In this document: positions 15,285 through 62,399 of the stretch, piece by piece | How the letters are laid out: each line of letters starts with the position of its first letter | Position numbering within the stretch: position 1 is the first letter of the stretch | DNA from: a virus | DNA length: 64,000 nucleotides | Virus record (IMG/VR): IMGVR_UViG_3300034072_000758 | Coordinates: 363,030-427,029 of that record | Reading direction: 5' to 3' (one strand) | Made by a program: the position numbers and the translations under genes | The notes under the pieces: model-generated | Told to the model about the DNA's origin: nothing | Seen by the model: the letters and a program-made list of their open reading frames with translations, nothing else | Databases searched by the model: none

Positions 15285-16631
15285 ATGAACGAGATTTTGA
15301 ACATCATAGCCGCCCTCGAAGCTACCACAAAACGTAGTGACAAAGATCAAATCCTCATGGATGCCTTCATGTCGAAGAACTACCAGTTCTTCATTGGCCT
15401 CCAATATGCTTATGACAGTATGATCACGTTCGGCGTCAAAAAAGTCCCTCTGATAGAAGATACCGAAGAGATCGAAGGAACTCTGACATTTGATCAGTTC
15501 ATTGCTCTTTGTGACCAATTAGCCGCGCGCAAACTTACAGGAAACGCAGCAAAGACAGCGATCAACAACGCGGCTATGGCTTGTGACGCGAATCTCTGGA
15601 ACAATTTCTTCCGCCGCATCTTGTTGAAGGATATGCGCTGTGGAATCGATGTGAGTTCGATCAACAAGGTGCTGACGAAACTTTCCATATCCGGGGGTGA
15701 TCGTTTCCTTGTTCCCACCTTCGAATGTCAATCGGGGTATGACGTAAATAAGCATCCAAAGAAAATGGTCGGTCAGAAAATGATCGACACTAAGATGGAT
15801 GGTGCTCGCTGCTTGGCGGTAATCGATCCGGTGAATATGACGGCAAAGCTCTATACGCGCACCGGTAATGACATCGTAAATTACCCACATATCGAACGCG
15901 CGCTATTAAATCATTTCGCGCCCGCCTTTGACCAGAAGATCGTATTGGATGGCGAACTTATGGCTGACACGTTCAAAGGTGTCATGGAACAACTGAATCG
16001 AAAAAAGAATGTAGATACGTCCACTTCTCGATACTGTGTGTTTGACATCATCCCTTATGATCATTTCGCCAAGGGACAGTCGCCCATTACACAAATCGAA
16101 CGTCACCAGATGCTTATGGCACTCCATGAACAATTCACGTCCAGCGGGGGCGTCGTGTCCCTCACGCCGAAGATGATGATCAATCTGGACACCGAAGAAG
16201 GCCGACTGGCTCTGAAAGAGTACAACAAGACCGTGCTGGAAAATGGTTTTGAAGGCGTTATGATCAAAGACCCATTCGCGCCATATATTTGTAAAAAGAA
16301 CACAAATTGGCTCAAGCTCAAGCCATTTATTGAGGTGAGTCTGAAAGTTGTAGGTCTTCTCGATGGCGACGAAAATAAAAAATTCAGCGATGTAGTTGGA
16401 TCACTCGTGTGTGAGGGCGAAGACGAAGGTGTGTTTTATAAAGCGCAAGTCAGCAGCGGTATTTCCGAGGAAGAACGTGCTTTATGGAAAGCCGATCCTA
16501 ATTTAGTGCTTGGACTTGTCGCAGAAATAATTGCGATGGAGTCGGACTTTGTTGAAAAAGGTAATTATTACTCTTTGCGTCATCCTCGTTTGAAAGGATT
16601 TCGAGGATTTAAGAAGGGTGAAAAAATATAA
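15285..16631 (+). CDS. ATP-dependent DNA ligase
   Basis: 448 aa, close to the T4 gp30 size class. It seals nicks, for example between Okazaki fragments, through a lysyl-AMP intermediate. Motif I is DTKMDGAR with the nucleophilic Lys near residue 170. Motif III region DGELM, motif IV EGVMIKD and motif V WLKLKPF follow in order. The N-terminal 150 residues are the helical DNA-binding domain. No Shine-Dalgarno is visible, and the promoter position suggests a leaderless mRNA. Confidence 0.92.
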   Translation: MNEILNIIAALEATTKRSDKDQILMDAFMSKNYQFFIGLQYAYDSMITFGVKKVPLIEDTEEIEGTLTFDQFIALCDQLAARKLTGNAAKTAINNAAMACDANLWNNFFRRILLKDMRCGIDVSSINKVLTKLSISGGDRFLVPTFECQSGYDVNKHPKKMVGQKMIDTKMDGARCLAVIDPVNMTAKLYTRTGNDIVNYPHIERALLNHFAPAFDQKIVLDGELMADTFKGVMEQLNRKKNVDTSTSRYCVFDIIPYDHFAKGQSPITQIERHQMLMALHEQFTSSGGVVSLTPKMMINLDTEEGRLALKEYNKTVLENGFEGVMIKDPFAPYICKKNTNWLKLKPFIEVSLKVVGLLDGDENKKFSDVVGSLVCEGEDEGVFYKAQVSSGISEEERALWKADPNLVLGLVAEIIAMESDFVEKGNYYSLRHPRLKGFRGFKKGEKI

Positions 16632-28363: not shown

Positions 28364-28426
28364 TCGAAGTCTCCTATATTTTGTATTACTCAACTCTACT
28401 ATAAATCCAATAAATGTCAATGTATG

Positions 28427-28455
28427 TTGACAGCATAAAAACAAAATATTATACT
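28427..28455 (+). promoter_or_regulatory. consensus-like promoter
   Basis: TTGACA (28427-28432), 17 bases, TATACT (28450-28455). The predicted +1 coincides with the ATG at 28462. Confidence 0.7.
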
Positions 28456-28461
28456 GCGCCT

Positions 28462-29022
28462 ATGAAAATGATAGATAGTGAAAATCCCGCATCTGTAAAA
28501 TTACAGAAAGACGCATTTGAGTTCGCTGCGACCGCGCACCGTTCGATTAATCAACTGCGTAAGTATACCCAGACGCCGTATGAAGGTCATCCCTTTGCGG
28601 TGGGTCAAATGCTGATCAATCTGGTTCCAGAAGCAACACCGGAAGATGTCGCATCCGCGTATTTACATGACGTGGTTGAAGATACTCCCGTGAAGATCGA
28701 AGAAATCTATGAGAAGTTTGGTCCGGTGGTTGGACAAAACGTTGATGGCTTGACTGACGTAAGCAAGCCAGAAGACGGCAACCGCAAATTCCGTAAGGAA
28801 ATGGACAAAGAACATACTCTGGAACAACCAGTCAATGTTCTGAACATCAAGCTGGTGGACTTTCTTCATAACCAAGAGAGTATCTTGGAATATGACCCGG
28901 ACTTTGCGACCGTGTGGTGTCGTGAAAAGGCCAAGATTATCTTCGATCCGAGGATGGATAAGGCGTCTCCGGTCCTTCTGGAAAAGGCTCGTAACGCATT
29001 CAGGTCGTGGTACAAAGCTTGA
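28462..29022 (+). CDS. HD-domain hydrolase, (p)ppGpp hydrolase-like (SpoT/Mesh1 type)
   Basis: 186 aa. The pattern FAATAHRS, HPFAVGQML, ASAYLHDVVEDT, IYEKFGPVV, VDGLTDV and IKLVDFLHNQESI matches the HD hydrolase part of RelA/SpoT and small Mesh1-like alarmone hydrolases. There is no synthetase domain. If active, it could remove (p)ppGpp and blunt the host stringent response. The start is placed at 28462 (or 28468) because the promoter covers the upstream ATG; no Shine-Dalgarno is present. Confidence 0.75.
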   Translation: MKMIDSENPASVKLQKDAFEFAATAHRSINQLRKYTQTPYEGHPFAVGQMLINLVPEATPEDVASAYLHDVVEDTPVKIEEIYEKFGPVVGQNVDGLTDVSKPEDGNRKFRKEMDKEHTLEQPVNVLNIKLVDFLHNQESILEYDPDFATVWCREKAKIIFDPRMDKASPVLLEKARNAFRSWYKA

Positions 29023-29077: not shown

Positions 29078-29989
29078 ATGGACTATATCTTCGACATCGA
29101 TGGTACTATTGCGGACGTTAAGCACCGCTTACACTTCATCGAGAATGGTAATCGTGACTGGCCGGGGTTCTTCAAGGCCATGATTCACGACTCGCCTATC
29201 GTTGATATGTTTACGATGGCCCATGAATTGAAAAAGGCTGGCGGAAACATTTTGGTTTCGACCGCGCGCCCCGATGACTATCAGCAAGAGACTATCGACT
29301 GGATGGTTGCTTTGGGCTTCCCATACGACAAGCTGTATATGCGCGCGGCTGGTGACTTCCGCCGCGACAGCATTGTCAAGGAAGAACTGCTGTTACAGAT
29401 GGTTCAAGACGGCTATGATCCGAAGGTCGCATTCGATGACAAGGTTAATGTTATCGAAATGTACCGCAACAACGGTCTGATCGCTTTACAGTGCGACGCT
29501 GACGCCGAGAAGATCAGCCCGTATGCTGGTCAAACTCTGCTTCACGTTCTGGTCGGGCCTTCGGGCGCGGGTAAGTCTACGTATATCGCCAAGAACTACA
29601 AGGAAACCGATGTGGTGTCTTCGGACGGCATTCGTCTCTGGTTGTTCGGTGATTTTGATACGGCGCATACCCCGGAAAATTTGAAGCGTACTTGGTCTAC
29701 GGTCTATGCGTTCGTCGCTGCCCGTCTGGCGAATGGTATTTTCACGGTTCTCGATGCGACCAACATCAAGGCCAAGGATCGTCTGGAAGTTTTCAAGCAT
29801 GTCCCCAAGGGCGTTCTCGTGAACTACATTCTGATTGATCGTCCTCTGGATGATAAGCTGCGGGATCGTGGCTGGCGTCCTGAGTCTTTGGTGTTGAAGC
29901 ACCACAAGACTTTCCAGTCGTCCGTTAAGTCGGCTCTGGCTGGGGATGACCGCCCTGACGTGTTCGTATTCGATAAGCGTGAAAAGTAA
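29078..29989 (+). CDS. polynucleotide 3'-phosphatase/5'-kinase with phosphatase-first domain order
   Basis: 303 aa, almost the T4 Pnkp length (301). The N-terminal half is a HAD phosphatase: FDIDGT (Asp6, Asp8), LVSTARPDDY, RRDSIVKEELLL, and FDDKVNVIEMYRNNG, which parallels the T4 phosphatase DDRTQVVEMW segment. The C-terminal half is a P-loop kinase: GPSGAGKST (residues 160-168), SSDGIRLWL carrying the candidate general base, and LDATNIKAKDR. T4 Pnkp has the kinase first, so the order here is reversed, as in animal PNKP. It repairs RNA or DNA ends by inference. TAATG couples it to the next gene. Confidence 0.85.
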   Translation: MDYIFDIDGTIADVKHRLHFIENGNRDWPGFFKAMIHDSPIVDMFTMAHELKKAGGNILVSTARPDDYQQETIDWMVALGFPYDKLYMRAAGDFRRDSIVKEELLLQMVQDGYDPKVAFDDKVNVIEMYRNNGLIALQCDADAEKISPYAGQTLLHVLVGPSGAGKSTYIAKNYKETDVVSSDGIRLWLFGDFDTAHTPENLKRTWSTVYAFVAARLANGIFTVLDATNIKAKDRLEVFKHVPKGVLVNYILIDRPLDDKLRDRGWRPESLVLKHHKTFQSSVKSALAGDDRPDVFVFDKREK

Positions 29990-31143
29990 TGTATATTTCG
30001 CAAGAACAGGTGGATGCCTATCTCGCCAAAGTGGATTTATCCGACAGCGAGAATGGTGTCCACGCCATCAATATCATCAAGGACCGGGTTATTCAGGCAA
30101 TTTCTGAATGGTCCGGCCTTGAACCGGCTGTGATTAATCCAGACCCAATCGTTGAAGTCTCAGATAACTTCGACAATTTGTATTATGACGAGAACGCCAT
30201 CGCGCGTGACCCTCGTTATACGCATTATGTCGATGCTCACCACATTTTCCGTACCCAAATGACATCGGCTATTCCGCCGTTCCTGAGAAAGTACGCCAGA
30301 TCATACACGGGCCTCGACACATCCTTGTTCCTTGCGGCACACGGGCTGGTCTATCGCCGGGATGTTATCGACCGCACCCATGTGGGTGAACCACACCAAT
30401 TGGACCTATGGGTTCTGAATCGGTCGCGCCGCTTGAATCGGAATGATCTGGTGGATATGATCGGTGTGGTTTTGAACACATTGCTTCCCGGCTGTAAATA
30501 TCGTTGTAATGAGACCTATCACCCATACACTATCAATGGTCTCGAAGTTGAAGTGTGGTTTGGTACGGAAAAGACAGGGCGGTGGGTGGAAGTATTAGAA
30601 TGTGGTGAAGCGCACCCTTGGCTTCTGGACGATACCTATATGAACAGCAGACATGACCGTTGGACCGGCCTTGCTATGGGTATCGGTCTGGATCGTCTGT
30701 GTATGCTTCTCAAGGGCATTGATGACATTCGCCTGTTGCGCAGCACGGACCCTCGCGTGGCCGTTCAGATGGCGAACCTTAAGCCGTACAAGGGAGTCAG
30801 TAAGCAACCGGCCATCAACCGCGATATGTCTCTGTGCGTTCAAGAAGTCGATATGGAAAATATCGGCGGTCGTGTCCGTGAGGCTCTTGGCGAGCGCGCC
30901 GATTGGTTGGAAGAAATCGAGCTTCGTAAGGATTTCTCTTATGATGAAATACCCGATCAGGCGCGGGAGCGTCTGGGTATCCAACCGGGTCAGCGCAATA
31001 TTCTGTTGCGTTTGATCCTGCGTTCCCCCACCGATAGCATTCCCAAAGAAATTGGGAATGAAATTTATGACATCGTATACCGAGTCATTAACGAAGGAGC
31101 CGGGGGATACGAAATAAAATACTCTGGAAAAGGAAAAGAATAA
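29989..31143 (+). CDS. phenylalanyl-tRNA synthetase-like protein (PheS core plus FDX-ACB domain)
   Basis: 384 aa. Class II aminoacyl-tRNA synthetase of PheRS type. Motif 2 is YRRDVIDRTHVGEPHQLD (from residue 122), paralleling the PheS R-D-x-x-D-x-x-H pattern. Motif 3 is GLAMGIGLDRLCMLLKGIDD (from about 227). From about residue 267, YKGVSKQPAINRDMSLCV opens a ferredoxin-fold anticodon-binding domain, normally at the PheT C terminus. This is the monomeric layout of mitochondrial PheRS. Whether it charges tRNA-Phe is untested; the window also holds two tRNA-Phe(GAA) genes. Confidence 0.85.
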   Translation: MYISQEQVDAYLAKVDLSDSENGVHAINIIKDRVIQAISEWSGLEPAVINPDPIVEVSDNFDNLYYDENAIARDPRYTHYVDAHHIFRTQMTSAIPPFLRKYARSYTGLDTSLFLAAHGLVYRRDVIDRTHVGEPHQLDLWVLNRSRRLNRNDLVDMIGVVLNTLLPGCKYRCNETYHPYTINGLEVEVWFGTEKTGRWVEVLECGEAHPWLLDDTYMNSRHDRWTGLAMGIGLDRLCMLLKGIDDIRLLRSTDPRVAVQMANLKPYKGVSKQPAINRDMSLCVQEVDMENIGGRVREALGERADWLEEIELRKDFSYDEIPDQARERLGIQPGQRNILLRLILRSPTDSIPKEIGNEIYDIVYRVINEGAGGYEIKYSGKGKE

Positions 31144-31144
31144 T

Positions 31145-31549
31145 ATGTCTCAACCACCGTATGCTACGATTACCGCTCACAAGGGTCACCTTGTCTGTGA
31201 ACTTCTGGTAGATGGTGACGTTCCCGGTGCCGTAGCGTCCAGTATCAATAACCCCGGTCGTTTCGGTCAGGTTATCATGGACACCAGTATCCATCTGGGT
31301 ATTTCGGCAGAAGCCGTTGCGCTTCTGAAAACGATCAAGCGCGGGAGGGACGCTATCGGTGATGTCGATTGGTTCACCACGGCGGACGGTAAGGCGGCGT
31401 TTTGTTGGATTGGTGGTCCAAAGGCTCTGATCCGAGTCGAAGGGGCTGTTGGTTCTCGTGAATATATCGGCGCTACTAATATCGAGGGTAAGTACGTGCT
31501 CGTAGCCAATGATGTTCCAGCCGAAGCCATAGAAGCCATCGAAGCATAG
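31145..31549 (+). CDS. hypothetical protein, 134 aa
   Basis: Two bases after the PheRS-like gene, with AGGAAA before the ATG; last gene of this operon. Compact beta-rich composition with an EAIEAIEA C-terminal repeat. No family recognised. Confidence 0.65.
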   Translation: MSQPPYATITAHKGHLVCELLVDGDVPGAVASSINNPGRFGQVIMDTSIHLGISAEAVALLKTIKRGRDAIGDVDWFTTADGKAAFCWIGGPKALIRVEGAVGSREYIGATNIEGKYVLVANDVPAEAIEAIEA

Positions 31550-31550
31550 A

Positions 31551-31575
31551 AAAAGCCCCTTTCGGGGCTTTTTTG
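31551..31575. terminator. bidirectional terminator
   Basis: AAAAGCCCC/GGGGCTTTT with a TTTC loop, exactly filling the gap between convergent genes. Confidence 0.85.
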
Positions 31576-31851
31576 TTATCGTTTGGATCGGGATACGCTG
31601 CGAAGAGGATGTCGTTTTTTCGGGTGAACCCGGCGTTCGAGAAGTAGGGGCTTGCGCGCTTCGCCGTCATCGTACTTTTTATATTTAAAGATCGGCCCTT
31701 CAAAGTCGCGCTTAAATAGTTCGTCACGGATTACGATCCCCTCACGTCTTTCTTCGTTTATAACTTGAATGTCAGGATCGATTTTCGCCGTTTCTTGGCG
31801 AATGTGATCTAGTTCCTCAGCGGTAGCATTCTCAACAACAAAAATCTTCAT
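31576..31851 (-). CDS. hypothetical small basic protein, 91 aa
   Basis: ATG at 31851 with GGAGG seven bases upstream. N-terminal half acidic (ENATAEELDHIRQETAKID), C-terminal tail strongly basic (RRVHPKKRHPLRSVSRSKR). Upstream is TTGACA (31907-31902) with TAGAGT 16 bases on. Function unknown. Confidence 0.65.
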   Translation of the reverse strand: MKIFVVENATAEELDHIRQETAKIDPDIQVINEERREGIVIRDELFKRDFEGPIFKYKKYDDGEARKPLLLERRVHPKKRHPLRSVSRSKR

Positions 31852-31879
31852 GTGACCCTCCAACCAAATAATATTCGTT

Positions 31880-31978: not shown

Positions 31979-32710
31979 ATGAGTAATACTTTAGTAACCG
32001 CATGGTTTGATATTGGTAGAGTAAATTGGAACCAACACTCAAGAAGCGCGGAAGAATATATCGACCGATTTTCTAATCTAGCAAAGCTAGATACCAATTT
32101 GATAATTTACACTACCCGCAATTACGCGGGTAGACTTGAGAAGATCAGAGCCGATAACGGATTCTCGAATTTGACGAAAGTTGTAATCGTTGAATTTCCC
32201 GATCCAAAGTACGCCGATATATTAAAAGCTATTGAAGAAACCCAACAACATCCTGATTTCACTAAGCATTTAATGGCTGATGTTACAGGTCTCCCTCAGT
32301 ATCAATATCCCGAATACGTGCTCGTTACTACCCTCAAGTCCTCATTCGTGGCGGATGCCATTGAACGTGGGTTAGTAACCACCGAACATGCCACTTGGGT
32401 AGATTTCGGCTTCATGGTGACACCATCAACTGAACTGGTTATCCCACCATTGTATCCTGAGCATATTTCAGCTTTTCCGCTCGAAGAAATCGCGGACCCG
32501 GATGCGTTCATTTATGACTCTATCGTCAATGCGTATTCAACACCGTCCACCAAATTATTCACAGCCCCGGTAACCATGTGGCGTTCATTATCAGATGAAA
32601 TGCTTATTGCTTTGGAACTGGTGCTTGAAAATGGAATGGTGGCCAAAGATACCGTTCTGTTTTCCATTTGTAACATTAAATTCCCGCATGTTTTTGAGAG
32701 CAATCGATAA
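31979..32710 (+). CDS. HtrL/YibB-like protein (putative glycosyltransferase fold)
   Basis: 243 aa. The N terminus LVTAWFDIGRVNWNQHSRS, then EEYIDRFSNLAKLDTNLIIYT and later ATWVDFGF, match the HtrL/YibB family. That family is linked to polysaccharide loci and thought to be glycosyltransferase-like. Shorter than typical members. First gene of a four- or five-gene sugar-related run; TAATG coupling to the next. Confidence 0.65.
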   Translation: MSNTLVTAWFDIGRVNWNQHSRSAEEYIDRFSNLAKLDTNLIIYTTRNYAGRLEKIRADNGFSNLTKVVIVEFPDPKYADILKAIEETQQHPDFTKHLMADVTGLPQYQYPEYVLVTTLKSSFVADAIERGLVTTEHATWVDFGFMVTPSTELVIPPLYPEHISAFPLEEIADPDAFIYDSIVNAYSTPSTKLFTAPVTMWRSLSDEMLIALELVLENGMVAKDTVLFSICNIKFPHVFESNR

Positions 32711-34086
32711 TGAATAAGCTTGTAATATTTGATCTTGACGGTGTTTTGCTTGATAGCCGAGAACTCCATTATGAATCGCTCAACGCGGCCTTAGCCAAGG
32801 TTGGCCAAGAATATATCATCACCCGCGACGAACACCTGAGCCTGTACGATGGCCTCAACACCACGAAGAAGCTTCGTATGCTCACCGAGCGTAAGGGCCT
32901 CCCAGCGGGCTTACACCAGCAAGTATGGGAAGACAAGCAAGCGGCCACCTTTGACCTGATCAAGCGCTTCCCACTGTCTCCCAAGGCCGTACAAGCGTGT
33001 CAGGAGATTAAGAAACGCGGCTGGAAGATCGCCGTGGCCTCCAACAGCATCCGCGAGACTGTAAAGCTGGCTTTGATGGCTATTGGTATCATGGAATATG
33101 TAGACGTGTTCGTAAGCAACGAAGACGTGACCCGGACGAAGCCTTACCCGGAAATGTATTGGCAAGCTATGACCAAATTGAACGCCTTGCCCCGCAACAC
33201 CATCATCTGTGAAGACTCACACATTGGCCGACAAGGCGCGCTGGATTCGGGTGCTAATCTGTTACCTATCGAAAATTCAGAGACTTGGACCGTCTCTGAC
33301 ATAACAAATCTTATTCAAGAAGTGGAAAACAAATCTATGGAACGCATTGCGTGGATTGATAAAAAGCTCAACGTTCTTATCCCGATGGCGGGCGCTGGAT
33401 CGCGCTTCGCCGATGCGGGCTATACCTTCCCTAAGCCTCTGATCGAGGTCCGTGGTAAGCCGATGATACAAGTGGTCGTTGAGAATCTTAACATACAAGC
33501 TAATTATATTTTCGTGGTCCAGAAAGCGCACTATGAAAAATATGATCTGGAACATGTGCTGAATAACATTGCCCCCGGCTGTAAGATTATTCAGACCGAT
33601 GGCTTGACCGAAGGCGCTGCCTGTACTGCCCTGCTGGCCAAGGAATATATCGACAACGATGCCCCGCTGTTTTTTGCCAACTCGGATCAATTTGTGGAAT
33701 GGAACAGCAATGAAGTCCTGTATGCCTTCAACGCGGATGGGATCGACGGTGGTATCGTTACGTTCGATGCCAATCACCCGAAATGGTCTTATGCCAAGGT
33801 AGGCGAAGATGGTTTTGTTTCGGAAGTTGCTGAGAAGAAAGTAATCTCCAACGATGCTACGGTCGGCTTCTATTGGTGGAAACAAGGTTCGGATTTTGTA
33901 AAATATGCCGAACAAATGATAGAAAAGAATATCCGTGTCAACAATGAGTTCTATGTTTGCCCGGTATTTAATCAGGCTATCGAAGACGGTAAGAAGATTC
34001 GTGTCAAGAAGACCGATGGTATGTGGGGGATCGGAACGCCGGAAGACCTCAACACCTTCTTGGAAAACTACAAGGGTAAAATTTAA
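32710..34086 (+). CDS. fusion: HAD phosphatase plus sugar-phosphate nucleotidyltransferase
   Basis: 458 aa. Residues 1-200 form a beta-phosphoglucomutase-type HAD domain (FDLDGVLLDS, VASNS, KPYPEMY, CEDSHIG). From about residue 220, an NTP-transferase domain has the nucleotide-binding loop IPMAGAGSRFADAGYTFPKP and a later ANSDQFVEW metal-binding segment. The combination would make or remodel an activated sugar (NDP-sugar). Exact sugar unknown. Downstream genes look like glycan transfer or hydrolysis enzymes. Confidence 0.85.
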   Translation: MNKLVIFDLDGVLLDSRELHYESLNAALAKVGQEYIITRDEHLSLYDGLNTTKKLRMLTERKGLPAGLHQQVWEDKQAATFDLIKRFPLSPKAVQACQEIKKRGWKIAVASNSIRETVKLALMAIGIMEYVDVFVSNEDVTRTKPYPEMYWQAMTKLNALPRNTIICEDSHIGRQGALDSGANLLPIENSETWTVSDITNLIQEVENKSMERIAWIDKKLNVLIPMAGAGSRFADAGYTFPKPLIEVRGKPMIQVVVENLNIQANYIFVVQKAHYEKYDLEHVLNNIAPGCKIIQTDGLTEGAACTALLAKEYIDNDAPLFFANSDQFVEWNSNEVLYAFNADGIDGGIVTFDANHPKWSYAKVGEDGFVSEVAEKKVISNDATVGFYWWKQGSDFVKYAEQMIEKNIRVNNEFYVCPVFNQAIEDGKKIRVKKTDGMWGIGTPEDLNTFLENYKGKI

Positions 34087-44412: not shown

Positions 44413-44839
44413 GCACGGCTATTTCCTTACCATGAGTAAAACACAACGAGAAATCTATGTCGAGCGCGTCTTGCCGGTAGATGAAGAAATTGTGTTTCCT
44501 ATTTTGGTGGAAATAGCCCCTCAACTTCCTGAGATACAGGAAAACAAGTTTTACTACTATATCATGAAGGGAAAGGCGAGAATTGCTTTCATCACAAAGC
44601 GCCTCGATAACATGTGTGTGGGGAGATATATTCTCAAGGATGGAAAATGGTCAGCCCCGACTTGTTTCAAAAACGAATGCTTCGCGCGAGGTCGATCATT
44701 GACCGCTATTCTTCCGCCGTTTCTGATAGACGAAGAATGGGCTAAAGAAGTCGCGGACAAGTCAGTATATGGGCGTTCTAAAGCTTTATCTCTGGCGGAC
44801 TTGGAACGCATTGGTGGTGGTACTCCCGACCAGAATTGA
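44405..44839 (+). CDS. hypothetical protein, 144 aa
   Basis: Starts within the uvsW 3' end. Alpha/beta, no family recognised. The last 22 bases lie antisense to the CCA end and acceptor stem of a tRNA-Glu gene. Confidence 0.6.
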   Translation: MRRHGYFLTMSKTQREIYVERVLPVDEEIVFPILVEIAPQLPEIQENKFYYYIMKGKARIAFITKRLDNMCVGRYILKDGKWSAPTCFKNECFARGRSLTAILPPFLIDEEWAKEVADKSVYGRSKALSLADLERIGGGTPDQN

Positions 44840-44892
44840 ACTGGCACTCTCCGCTTGAAAGGCGGGCGTCATGACCATTAGACCACGGGAGC
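44818..44892 (-). tRNA. tRNA-Glu (anticodon TTC)
   Basis: Cloverleaf on the minus strand: GCTCCCG/CGGGAGT acceptor, CTTTCAA anticodon loop, T loop TTCAATT, encoded CCA (44820-44818). The 27-43 pair is C-A. Its 3' end overlaps the stop region of the opposite gene. Confidence 0.85.
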
Positions 44893-44916
44893 ATAGTCAA
44901 CAAAGTGTTAAATTGT

Positions 44917-44991
44917 TGGTACTCCCAACGGGATTCGAACCCGTGTCGCCGGATTGAAAGTCCAGCATCCTGACCACTAGAAGATGGGAGC
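44917..44991 (-). tRNA. tRNA-Glu (anticodon TTC), second copy
   Basis: Acceptor GCTCCCA/TGGGAGT, fully paired anticodon stem CTGGA/TCCGG around CTTTCAA, T arm ACGGG-TTCGAAT-CCCGT, encoded CCA. Confidence 0.92.
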
Positions 44992-45024
44992 ATAGAAAAT
45001 CAAAAGCCCGATCTCTCGTTCTTT

Positions 45025-45098
45025 TGGTACTCCCTACGGGAATCGAACCCGCGTTGTCAGATTGAAAGTCTGTTGTCCTGCCATTAGACGAAGGGAGC
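45025..45098 (-). tRNA. tRNA-Glu (anticodon TTC), third copy
   Basis: Acceptor GCTCCCT/AGGGAGT, CTTTCAA anticodon loop in stem ACAGA/TCTGA (one terminal mismatch), T loop TTCGATT, encoded CCA. Same anticodon as its two neighbours but a different body. Confidence 0.9.
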
Positions 45099-57244: not shown

Positions 57245-57772
57245 ATGCGCCGCAAGCTGTCATTTCAAACTAAAGATATAAAGACCCCGGAATTGCTGGT
57301 TCTTTATGTGCTTGTTCGCACCGACATGGCCTCTATGAGTAGCGGTCGATCCGCCGCCCAAGTCGGCCACGCGACTACTCAGTTCGAGTTCGACGCCAGC
57401 AACTCACCATCGAATGACCCGGAAATCGATGCTCTGCGTGTTCTGTCCGGCATCACTTCGACTGGTCCCGTGAATCCGGCTCTGGATCAAAAGATCGCCG
57501 CGTGGAAAGCTTCAACCCGTGGTGGCTTCGGTACACAAATCGTTCTGAATTGCCCGTCCGCCGCAGAAATGTATGCGCGGGTTGAGAAGGCTCAGGCAGC
57601 TAACGTTCACGCTGGGATTGTCAACGACCCGGAGTATTTCGTTCAAGATGGGCGCGCATTTCATCCAATTTCCGTGGATACCTGCGCATACATCTTCGGG
57701 CGGAAGGACGAATGTTTCCCCTTCGTCGGGGATATGGCATTGCTGATGGATAAAGATTTTCTGAATAGGTAA
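57245..57772 (+). CDS. PTH2-type peptidyl-tRNA hydrolase-like protein, 175 aa
   Basis: LLVLYVLVRTDMASMSSGRSAAQVGHA matches the PTH2 start (VxRxDLxMGxGKxAAQxAHA) and is followed by GGFGTQIVLNCPSAAEMYAR, then VDTCAYIFGRKDE and FPFVGDMALL (T..aiGP...id.vTg.l.ll). PTH2 frees tRNA from stalled peptidyl-tRNA. It is typical of archaea and eukaryotes, so a phage copy fits the tRNA-rich genome. The usual GK is changed to GR, so activity needs proof. TTAGGAG before the ATG. Confidence 0.7.
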   Translation: MRRKLSFQTKDIKTPELLVLYVLVRTDMASMSSGRSAAQVGHATTQFEFDASNSPSNDPEIDALRVLSGITSTGPVNPALDQKIAAWKASTRGGFGTQIVLNCPSAAEMYARVEKAQAANVHAGIVNDPEYFVQDGRAFHPISVDTCAYIFGRKDECFPFVGDMALLMDKDFLNR

Positions 57773-61320: not shown

Positions 61321-61392
61321 GCCACGATAGCTGAGAAGGATTAGCGGCTGTCTGAAAAGCAGTAGAGAGACGTTCGATACGTCTTCGTGGCA
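61321..61392 (+). tRNA. tRNA-Phe (anticodon GAA), unusual copy
   Basis: GCCACGA/TCGTGGC acceptor, T arm AGACG-TTCGATA-CGTCT, anticodon loop CTGAAAA in a stem with two G-T pairs. CCA not encoded. The D arm is AT/GA-rich and unlike the other copy at 61566. Confidence 0.75.
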
Positions 61393-61393
61393 C

Positions 61394-61467
61394 AGTAGAT
61401 TAGCTCAGTCTGGTAGAGCACACGCTTGATAAGCGTTAGGTCACTGGTTCAAATCCAGTATCTACTA
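61394..61467 (+). tRNA. tRNA-Ile (anticodon GAT)
   Basis: AGTAGAT/ATCTACT acceptor, D arm GCTC/GAGC, loop TTGATAA, T loop TTCAAAT. CCA not encoded. Confidence 0.88.
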
Positions 61468-61468
61468 C

Positions 61469-61541
61469 GGTCGATTAGCTCAGTTGGTAGAGCACTGTCT
61501 TGATAAGGCATAGGTCGCTGGTTCGAATCCAGCATCGACTA
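61469..61541 (+). tRNA. tRNA-Ile (anticodon GAT), second copy
   Basis: GGTCGAT/ATCGACT acceptor (terminal G-T), loop TTGATAA, T loop TTCGAAT. CCA not encoded. Same anticodon as the preceding gene. Confidence 0.88.
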
Positions 61542-61565
61542 CCTCCTTCGGGAGACTTTATTAAT

Positions 61566-61639
61566 GTAGCCGTAGCTCAGTCTGGTAGAGCATCTGGTTG
61601 AAACCCAGAGTGTCAGTGGTTCAAATCCACTCGGTTACA
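61566..61639 (+). tRNA. tRNA-Phe (anticodon GAA)
   Basis: GTAGCCG/CGGTTAC acceptor, perfect TCTGG/CCAGA anticodon stem around TTGAAAC, T loop TTCAAAT. CCA not encoded. Possible substrate of the PheRS-like protein. Confidence 0.9.
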
Positions 61640-61641
61640 CT

Positions 61642-61719
61642 TGCGGATTGGGGGAGCTTGGAGTCCCCGCTGGCCTCATAAGCCAGAGATCACCGGTTCA
61701 AGTCCGGTATCCGCTCCCA
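61642..61719 (+). tRNA. tRNA with CAT anticodon (Met or Ile2)
   Basis: Perfect CTGGC/GCCAG anticodon stem around CTCATAA; GGGG/CCCC D stem; T arm ACCGG-TTCAAGT-CCGGT; encoded CCA. The first acceptor position is an unpaired T-T. That resembles the mismatch of initiator tRNAs, but the GGG/CCC initiator triplet is not complete (C31-G39). Confidence 0.85.
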
Positions 61720-61767
61720 ATACTTCCCTCCGGGGATGTAGTCTTTGACATTGTGAATAACGATTAT

Positions 61768-61841
61768 ACAAGCGTAGCTCAGTCCGGTAGAGCGACGGTC
61801 TCATACGCCGTTTGTCGCAGGTTCGAATCCTGCCGCTTGTA
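61768..61841 (+). tRNA. tRNA with CAT anticodon (second copy)
   Basis: ACAAGCG/CGCTTGT acceptor, ACGGT/GCCGT stem around CTCATAC, T loop TTCGAAT. CCA not encoded. One of the two CAT tRNAs may be a lysidine-type Ile2; the sequence does not settle which. Confidence 0.88.
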
Positions 61842-61842
61842 C

Positions 61843-61918
61843 TGAGGGTTGGTGTAGTAGGTAACATAGCTGACTTTGAATCAGAAGATGGCAGGTTCGA
61901 GACCTGCACCCTCAGCCA
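61843..61918 (+). tRNA. tRNA-Gln (anticodon TTG)
   Basis: TGAGGGT/ACCCTCA acceptor, loop CTTTGAA, T loop TTCGAGA, encoded CCA. Confidence 0.88.
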
Positions 61919-61922
61919 ATAT

Positions 61923-61994
61923 TTCCGTGTAGCTCAATGGTAGAGCACCCGCCTGTTAAGCGGACGGTTGCTGGTTCGAGTCCAGCCACGGGAG
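61923..61994 (+). tRNA. tRNA-Asn (anticodon GTT)
   Basis: TTCCGTG/CACGGGA acceptor, loop CTGTTAA, T loop TTCGAGT. CCA not encoded. Confidence 0.88.
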
Positions 61995-62054
61995 CGGAGG
62001 GATTGTAGGTGGACCAGATGGCATGGGGAACCTTCATATGTGAATGTCGTATAA

Positions 62055-62125
62055 GTGAACCCGTATAGGGTGAATACGCTCCCCCTATGTTGGGAGAGAT
62101 TGTGGTTCGAATCCACACGTTTACA
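62055..62125 (+). tRNA. degenerate or unusual tRNA, anticodon unclear
   Basis: Good T arm TGTGG-TTCGAAT-CCACA, near-complete GTGAACC/CGTTTAC acceptor, D arm GTAT/ATAC. The anticodon stem CTCCC/GGGAG encloses eight bases (CCTATGTT), and T8 is missing. Alternatively the 5' side is GTGAATG at 62040 (all seven pairs form) with an oversized D/anticodon region. Pseudo-tRNA, mis-sequenced base, or eight-base-loop tRNA. Confidence 0.45.
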
Positions 62126-62126
62126 C

Positions 62127-62202
62127 CTGAGTGTGGGGGAGTCTGGCCGTCCCTGTCGGTTTTGGAAACCGAAGATCGTGAGTTCAAATCTCACCACTCA
62201 GA
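62127..62202 (+). tRNA. tRNA-Pro (anticodon TGG)
   Basis: CTGAGTG/CACTCAG acceptor, perfect TCGGT/ACCGA stem around TTTGGAA, GGGG/TCCC D stem, T loop TTCAAAT. CCA not encoded. Confidence 0.88.
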
Positions 62203-62247
62203 CAAGGCATTGTAGGTGGGCGTTCGCGCGGTGAAACCTTCGATTAT

Positions 62248-62324
62248 GGTGATGTATCTCAGTCTGGTAGAGAGGCGCGTTGTCAGCGCGACGGTCGCGG
62301 GTTCGAATCCCGTCTTCACCGCCA
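62248..62324 (+). tRNA. tRNA-Asp (anticodon GTC)
   Basis: GGTGATG/CTTCACC acceptor with one T-T mismatch, loop TTGTCAG, T loop TTCGAAT, encoded CCA. Confidence 0.87.
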
Positions 62325-62325
62325 A

Positions 62326-62397
62326 GGTCTCATAGTTCATCGGTTAGAACACCGCCCTGTCACGGCGGAGGGACGGGTTCGATTCCCGTTGAGATCG
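62326..62397 (+). tRNA. tRNA-Asp (anticodon GTC), second copy
   Basis: GGTCTCA/TGAGATC acceptor, perfect CCGCC/GGCGG stem around CTGTCAC, T loop TTCGATT. CCA not encoded. Ends three bases from the convergent minus-strand gene. Confidence 0.9.
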
Positions 62398-62399
62398 CC

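Follow-up and report, generated by a model that had tools for sequence, protein, structure and literature searches.

Against the anticodon nucleases of their hosts, phages deploy end-healing enzymes and an RNA ligase, and the kinase-phosphatase of T4 is the model for such enzymes. In T4, tRNA-Lys cut by PrrC is repaired by Pnk together with Rnl1 (PMC2610378). End-processing enzymes of jumbo phages generally co-occur with ATP-grasp RNA ligases, and the HAD phosphatase is usually joined to an N-terminal kinase (PMC7824862). The window, i.e., the whole 64,000-nt stretch of DNA analysed here, covers positions 363030-427029 of a 516,805-bp virus record and encodes a protein, HAD-Pnk, in which these two domains stand in the opposite order:

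29078..29989, + strand: HAD-Pnk, predicted bifunctional 3'-phosphatase / 5'-polynucleotide kinase, open ORF, 303 aa
29078..29506, + strand: HAD phosphatase domain, residues 1-143 (PF25109, 5uj0 match, residue mapping)
29528..29986, + strand: P-loop 5'-OH polynucleotide kinase domain, residues 151-303 (CthPnkp kinase match, residue mapping)

We read this gene, with a probability of about 0.85, as encoding an RNA end-healing enzyme with both activities, which would prepare tRNA for sealing by a phage ligase and which arose by a separate fusion.

Domain order, fold and active-site residues

The phosphatase motifs FDIDGT (residues 5-10) and DDKVNVIEMYRNNG (residues 120-133) precede the P-loop GPSGAGKST (residues 160-168). 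Pfam HAD_PNKP (PF25109) matched residues 3-140 with an E-value of 1.4e-24 and 87.3 bits, above its curated cut-off of 27.6 bits, and AAA_33 (PF13671) matched residues 155-256 (E 2.3e-14). The NCBIfam model of bacterial Pnkp, TIGR04075, matched residues 154-256 (E 4.7e-15) at 54.8 bits, below its cut-off of 750 bits, with the kinase part alone being matched. This phosphatase-then-kinase match is far beyond chance. The first-pass annotation had placed a HAD phosphatase at the N terminus and a P-loop kinase at the C terminus, the reverse of T4, and both statements are borne out by motifs, Pfam, NCBIfam and the predicted structure, the HAD domain of T4 PseT lying at residues ~160-300. An alternative in-frame ATG at 28892 would give a protein of 365 aa; 29078 is the likelier start, because the relatives begin one to a few residues ahead of IFDxDGT. 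A PADLOC search gave no match.

An AlphaFold2 model built from 31 family sequences reached a mean pLDDT of 94.2 and a pTM of only 0.64, so that the packing of the two domains is uncertain. In structural comparisons, residues 1-143 of this model came out closest in fold to the phosphatase of T4 Pnkp (Z 21.0 and rmsd 1.6 against 5uj0), and the HAD phosphatase of Capnocytophaga Pnkp1 also scored highly (Z 19.8). For residues 151-303 the best match was the Clostridium thermocellum Pnkp (CthPnkp) kinase (4jt2), with Z 19.2 and an rmsd of 1.8 across 147 residues; the T4 kinase 1ly1 came behind it (Z 15.1). All eight T4 phosphatase catalytic residues checked are identical: D6, D8, R17, R64, D97, K101, D120 and D121 correspond to T4 D165, D167, R176, R213, D254, K258, D277 and D278. 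On the kinase side, five out of seven are kept, with K166, S167, D183, R186 and R267 corresponding to T4 K15, S16, D35, R38 and R126, while T4 D85 and R122 lack a conserved counterpart in the alignment used. We take the T4 residues listed here to be the essential ones. Most of the phosphatase set and the P-loop K166, D183 and R186 are invariant in the 31 family members.

The first-pass annotation had named an adenylate-kinase-like C terminus as the finding that would overturn its reading, and this possibility was checked and discarded. P-loop folds are common to both kinds of enzyme and adenylate kinases do appear in the Foldseek list (TMt ~0.5), but polynucleotide kinases give the top matches in both sequence and structure, D183 and R186 align with their T4 counterparts, and the kinase shares a DATN motif with CthPnkp. 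Together with the fusion to a PNKP-type phosphatase and the linkage to RNA ligases, this makes a small-molecule or nucleotide kinase that has no polynucleotide kinase function exceedingly unlikely.

Spread of the fusion and origin of the two halves

HAD-Pnk is no isolated case: the same fusion occurs in dozens of phages. Matches over 80% of HAD-Pnk were found in 10 of 50,697 phage records, all of them Caulobacter Bertelyvirus jumbo phages, and two further family members used as queries retrieved the same ten. Their homologues are already labelled PNK, with the product name '3'-phosphatase, 5'-polynucleotide kinase'. With the window protein alone as query, a scan of viral contigs gave no match and alignments were needed; the scan of IMG/VR with a kinase alignment recovered 33 viral loci with a HAD domain ahead of the kinase, in ORFs of 269-392 aa, some of these loci being near-copies of each other. 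The same fusion was also found on one bacterial contig (Pseudaminobacter) and on one plasmid (Sphingosinicella), where it adjoins an 'RNA ligase family protein'. No description of the architecture was found in a search of openly accessible literature. What is new is the architecture and its evolutionary history; the kind of enzyme is known, the copies in isolates are annotated PNK, and functionally it is ordinary.

In a kinase tree of 92 rows, HAD-Pnk kinases and the kinase-metallophosphatases of jumbo phages form one clade (SH-aLRT 99), apart from T4-type and cellular Pnkp kinases, and a forced clade of HAD-Pnk and T4-type kinases was rejected (p-AU 0.0065). A permuted T4 Pnkp is ruled out by this tree and the AU test. 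In a careful tree rooted on cellular Pnkp-type kinases, the window kinase falls in a clade with other HAD-Pnk kinases (100/96), and the kinase-metallophosphatases (100/99) are nested within the HAD-Pnk group. Only 4% of bootstrap trees recovered HAD-Pnk kinases as monophyletic, while the branches that carry the nesting have modest support (84/78 to 90/82). This nesting points to an exchange of the phosphatase partner within the kinase lineage, the direction of which depends on the root. The phosphatase tree has too few columns to trace the HAD halves to a single fusion, and neither a single clade of HAD-Pnk HADs (p 0.675) nor a clade uniting them with T4-type HADs (p 0.575) was rejected.

The domain-wise phylogeny proposed in the first-pass annotation thus separated the kinase from the T4 type and left the phosphatase poorly resolved. 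The independent fusion or domain shuffling that it had suggested agrees with the kinase tree. Its term 'permutation' holds for the reversed order, but not for a rearranged T4 enzyme: the sequence comparisons support a T4-PseT-type phosphatase fused before a kinase of the bacterial Pnkp type, in an event separate from the fusion that gave the T4 kinase-phosphatase.

RNA ligases, neighbouring genes and the probable substrate

At 23 of the 32 HAD-Pnk loci compared, the 2.2 kb downstream contain a ligase gene of the T4-Rnl1 type on the same strand, which overlaps HAD-Pnk by exactly 4 bp in nine loci and by other, longer stretches in four. The ligase of one of these relatives (L020) matched the NCBIfam T4 RnlA model with an E-value of 2.6e-40. 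Because an Rnl1-type gene adjoins HAD-Pnk in most relatives, a role in RNA 'healing and sealing' is proposed; this recurring neighbour argues strongly for it and is the best evidence that the enzyme acts on RNA. The window HAD-Pnk has no intact ligase gene adjacent and a PheRS-like gene stands there instead. Targeted searches of the record located an Rnl1-type ligase at 70.7 kb, ~320 kb from HAD-Pnk, along with two clear ligases of the Rnl2 type, at 49.4 and 346.3 kb.

Some ligase-like genes were observed besides. A 95-aa ORF at 31576-31863 (- strand) matches only the C-terminal end of RNA_ligase PF09414 (E 0.0014, below cut-off); it is possibly a ligase remnant beside the PNK, or a chance match. 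Outside the window, at ~49-51 kb of the record (L005), a gene for an HNH-like plus Rnl2-type ligase precedes one for a complete tryptophanyl-tRNA synthetase (TIGR00233, 295 bits). At L118 and L134, two ORFs upstream of HAD-Pnk both match parts of this HNH-Rnl2-type ligase, consistent with a split ligase or with two separate genes.

Mechanistically, HAD-Pnk is very probably an ordinary end-healing enzyme. A metal-independent RNase, for example a host anticodon nuclease, would leave a 3'-phosphate or 2',3'-cyclic phosphate, which the N-terminal HAD domain could take off with D6 as nucleophile and D8 as acid/base. The C-terminal kinase could then use the gamma-phosphate of ATP to phosphorylate the other fragment at its 5'-OH, with K166 and S167 binding phosphate and D183 serving as general base, and an ATP-dependent phage RNA ligase, probably the distant Rnl1 of the same record, would seal the tRNA. 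We infer both activities, an RNA (tRNA) rather than a DNA substrate, and the counter-nuclease role.

On the other hand, HAD-Pnk could process the ends of DNA strand breaks as animal PNKP does, readying nicks for the phage DNA ligase. The domain order is that of animal PNKP, as the first-pass annotation had pointed out, and an ATP-dependent DNA ligase is encoded in the window at 15285-16631. The shared order is, however, all that links the two enzymes: the kinase is matched by the CthPnkp profile with an E-value of 1.6e-26 versus 0.02 for animal PNKP, and the whole two-domain model could not be superposed on mouse PNKP (rmsd ~21 A across 255 residues). In addition, Pfam detected no FHA domain in HAD-Pnk, which starts at the HAD motif, and it is RNA ligases that neighbour the gene in relatives. 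DNA end processing is therefore distinctly improbable, and we retain RNA end healing.

The run of genes around HAD-Pnk comprises the following further features:

28414..29022, + strand: HD_4 (RelA/SpoT-hydrolase-like) gene, ~55 nt upstream of HAD-Pnk (PF13328, E 5e-11; TIGR00691)
28427-28455: promoter-like site, 11/12 matches
29989..31143, + strand: PheRS-like protein, 'PheS-related mystery ligase SrmL', 384 aa (NF051887, 416 bits; PF01409)
31145..31549, + strand: 134-aa ORF, last gene of the run, with no Pfam or PHROG match
31549..31574, + strand: intrinsic terminator-like hairpin, 11 bp stem and T run, closing the run

The HD_4 gene is possibly on the same transcript as HAD-Pnk, and its product could degrade alarmone-type signals. 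The SrmL assignment exceeds the NCBIfam cut-off of 300 bits for NF051887, and the ATG of the SrmL gene overlaps the HAD-Pnk stop (TAATG). Homologues of SrmL occur in 508-kb and 635-kb phages, where they are not beside HAD-Pnk; in the 508-kb phage (L197), a SerRS-like gene, an ORF resembling a truncated class II synthetase, and the SrmL gene stand in a row. Above the family cut-off, no SrmL was found in 398 Pseudomonadota genomes. An AlphaFold2 model of SrmL from three sequences was too poor for use (pLDDT 62).

Fourteen tRNA genes were found in the window. Three near-adjacent tRNA-Glu(ttc) genes form a cluster at 44818-45098 (- strand), and eleven tRNAs, with Phe, Ile, Met and Asp duplicated, lie at 61321-62399 (+ strand). 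A PTH2-type peptidyl-tRNA hydrolase (PF01981) is encoded at 57245-57772 (+ strand); PTH2 is the archaeal/eukaryotic type and has been noted in jumbo phages (PMC7824862). A further apparent HAD fusion, recognized by eye, lies at 32710-34086 (+ strand) downstream of an HtrL_YibB gene (31979-32710) and combines a HAD phosphatase domain (FDLDGVLLDS) with a sugar-nucleotidyltransferase-like domain.

The stop/start overlap with the SrmL gene, along with the tRNA-Phe genes in the window, would suit RNA healing in a pathway coupled to PheRS/SrmL and working without a ligase, e.g., repair followed by re-charging of phage tRNA. Gene adjacency alone is weak, though, and a conserved PNK-PheRS pair was found neither among the compared HAD-Pnk relatives nor at the SrmL loci of other huge phages, the coupling being seen only in the window phage; we therefore consider such a pathway very unlikely. 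Gene order and coupling are the only grounds for linking HAD-Pnk to SrmL functionally, and such a link is speculative. A broader scenario would make HAD-Pnk a distinct phage RNA-repair lineage in which a C-terminal metallophosphatase of equivalent function took the place of an N-terminal HAD, an exchange proposed because the jumbo-phage kinase-metallophosphatases branch inside the HAD-Pnk lineage, and in which the coupling seen here would let SrmL act on healed tRNA/RNA ends; taken as a whole, this is improbable.

Comparison with known end-healing systems

The enzymes of the Bertelyvirus phages (CcrSC, CcrBL9, C1 and others) are like HAD-Pnk in order and in both domain families, with 34-36% identity over 98%, but they have a ~40-aa C-terminal extension and other neighbours, and their annotation is silent on the order. 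T4 PseT (Pnkp) resembles HAD-Pnk in the HAD domain, catalytic residues and total size, and a tRNA healing role is likewise expected; its kinase, however, is N-terminal and of another clade, its HAD is C-terminal, and by both family tests HAD-Pnk lies outside. The kinase of C. thermocellum Pnkp and bacterial Pnkp-Hen1 (TIGR04075) is the best sequence and structure match, but bacterial Pnkp is a kinase-metallophosphatase-ligase chain, whereas in HAD-Pnk a C-terminal kinase follows a HAD and there is no ligase domain. The kinase-metallophosphatases (~420 aa) of Agrobacterium phage Atu_ph07 and Sinorhizobium phage Phosso have kinases of the HAD-Pnk clade, yet their kinase is N-terminal, their metallophosphatase C-terminal, and a HAD is absent.

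Phosphatase-then-kinase order is also known from cellular enzymes. Animal PNKP differs by its FHA domain, its distant kinase sequence and, judged from the model, the way its domains pack. Deinococcus radiodurans PNKP DRB0098 (HD-Pnk) is a bacterial enzyme with this order (PMC1997131), but its phosphatase is an HD hydrolase, in contrast to the HAD of HAD-Pnk. Capnocytophaga Pnkp1, from the Pnkp1-Rnl-Hen1 system, is near in phosphatase structure and acts in RNA repair with a separate ligase (PMC4411300); unlike HAD-Pnk, it has a kinase-phosphatase order (kinase match at residues 13-121, HAD at 209-304) and a Hen1 partner.

We define here a phage HAD-Pnk plus Rnl1 cassette group: the window kinase falls in its HADK/K-MPP clade, and Rnl1 is not directly downstream. 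HAD-Pnk shows the domain order to be unconstrained and points to a kinase able to change its phosphatase partner; the family offers clean natural chimeras for testing interdomain coupling, while the SrmL link gives a lead on that protein family. Beside the T4 kinase-phosphatase, HAD-Pnk would stand as a second healing enzyme, separately assembled and opposite in order; dozens of environmental phages carry it, typically in translational coupling with Rnl1.
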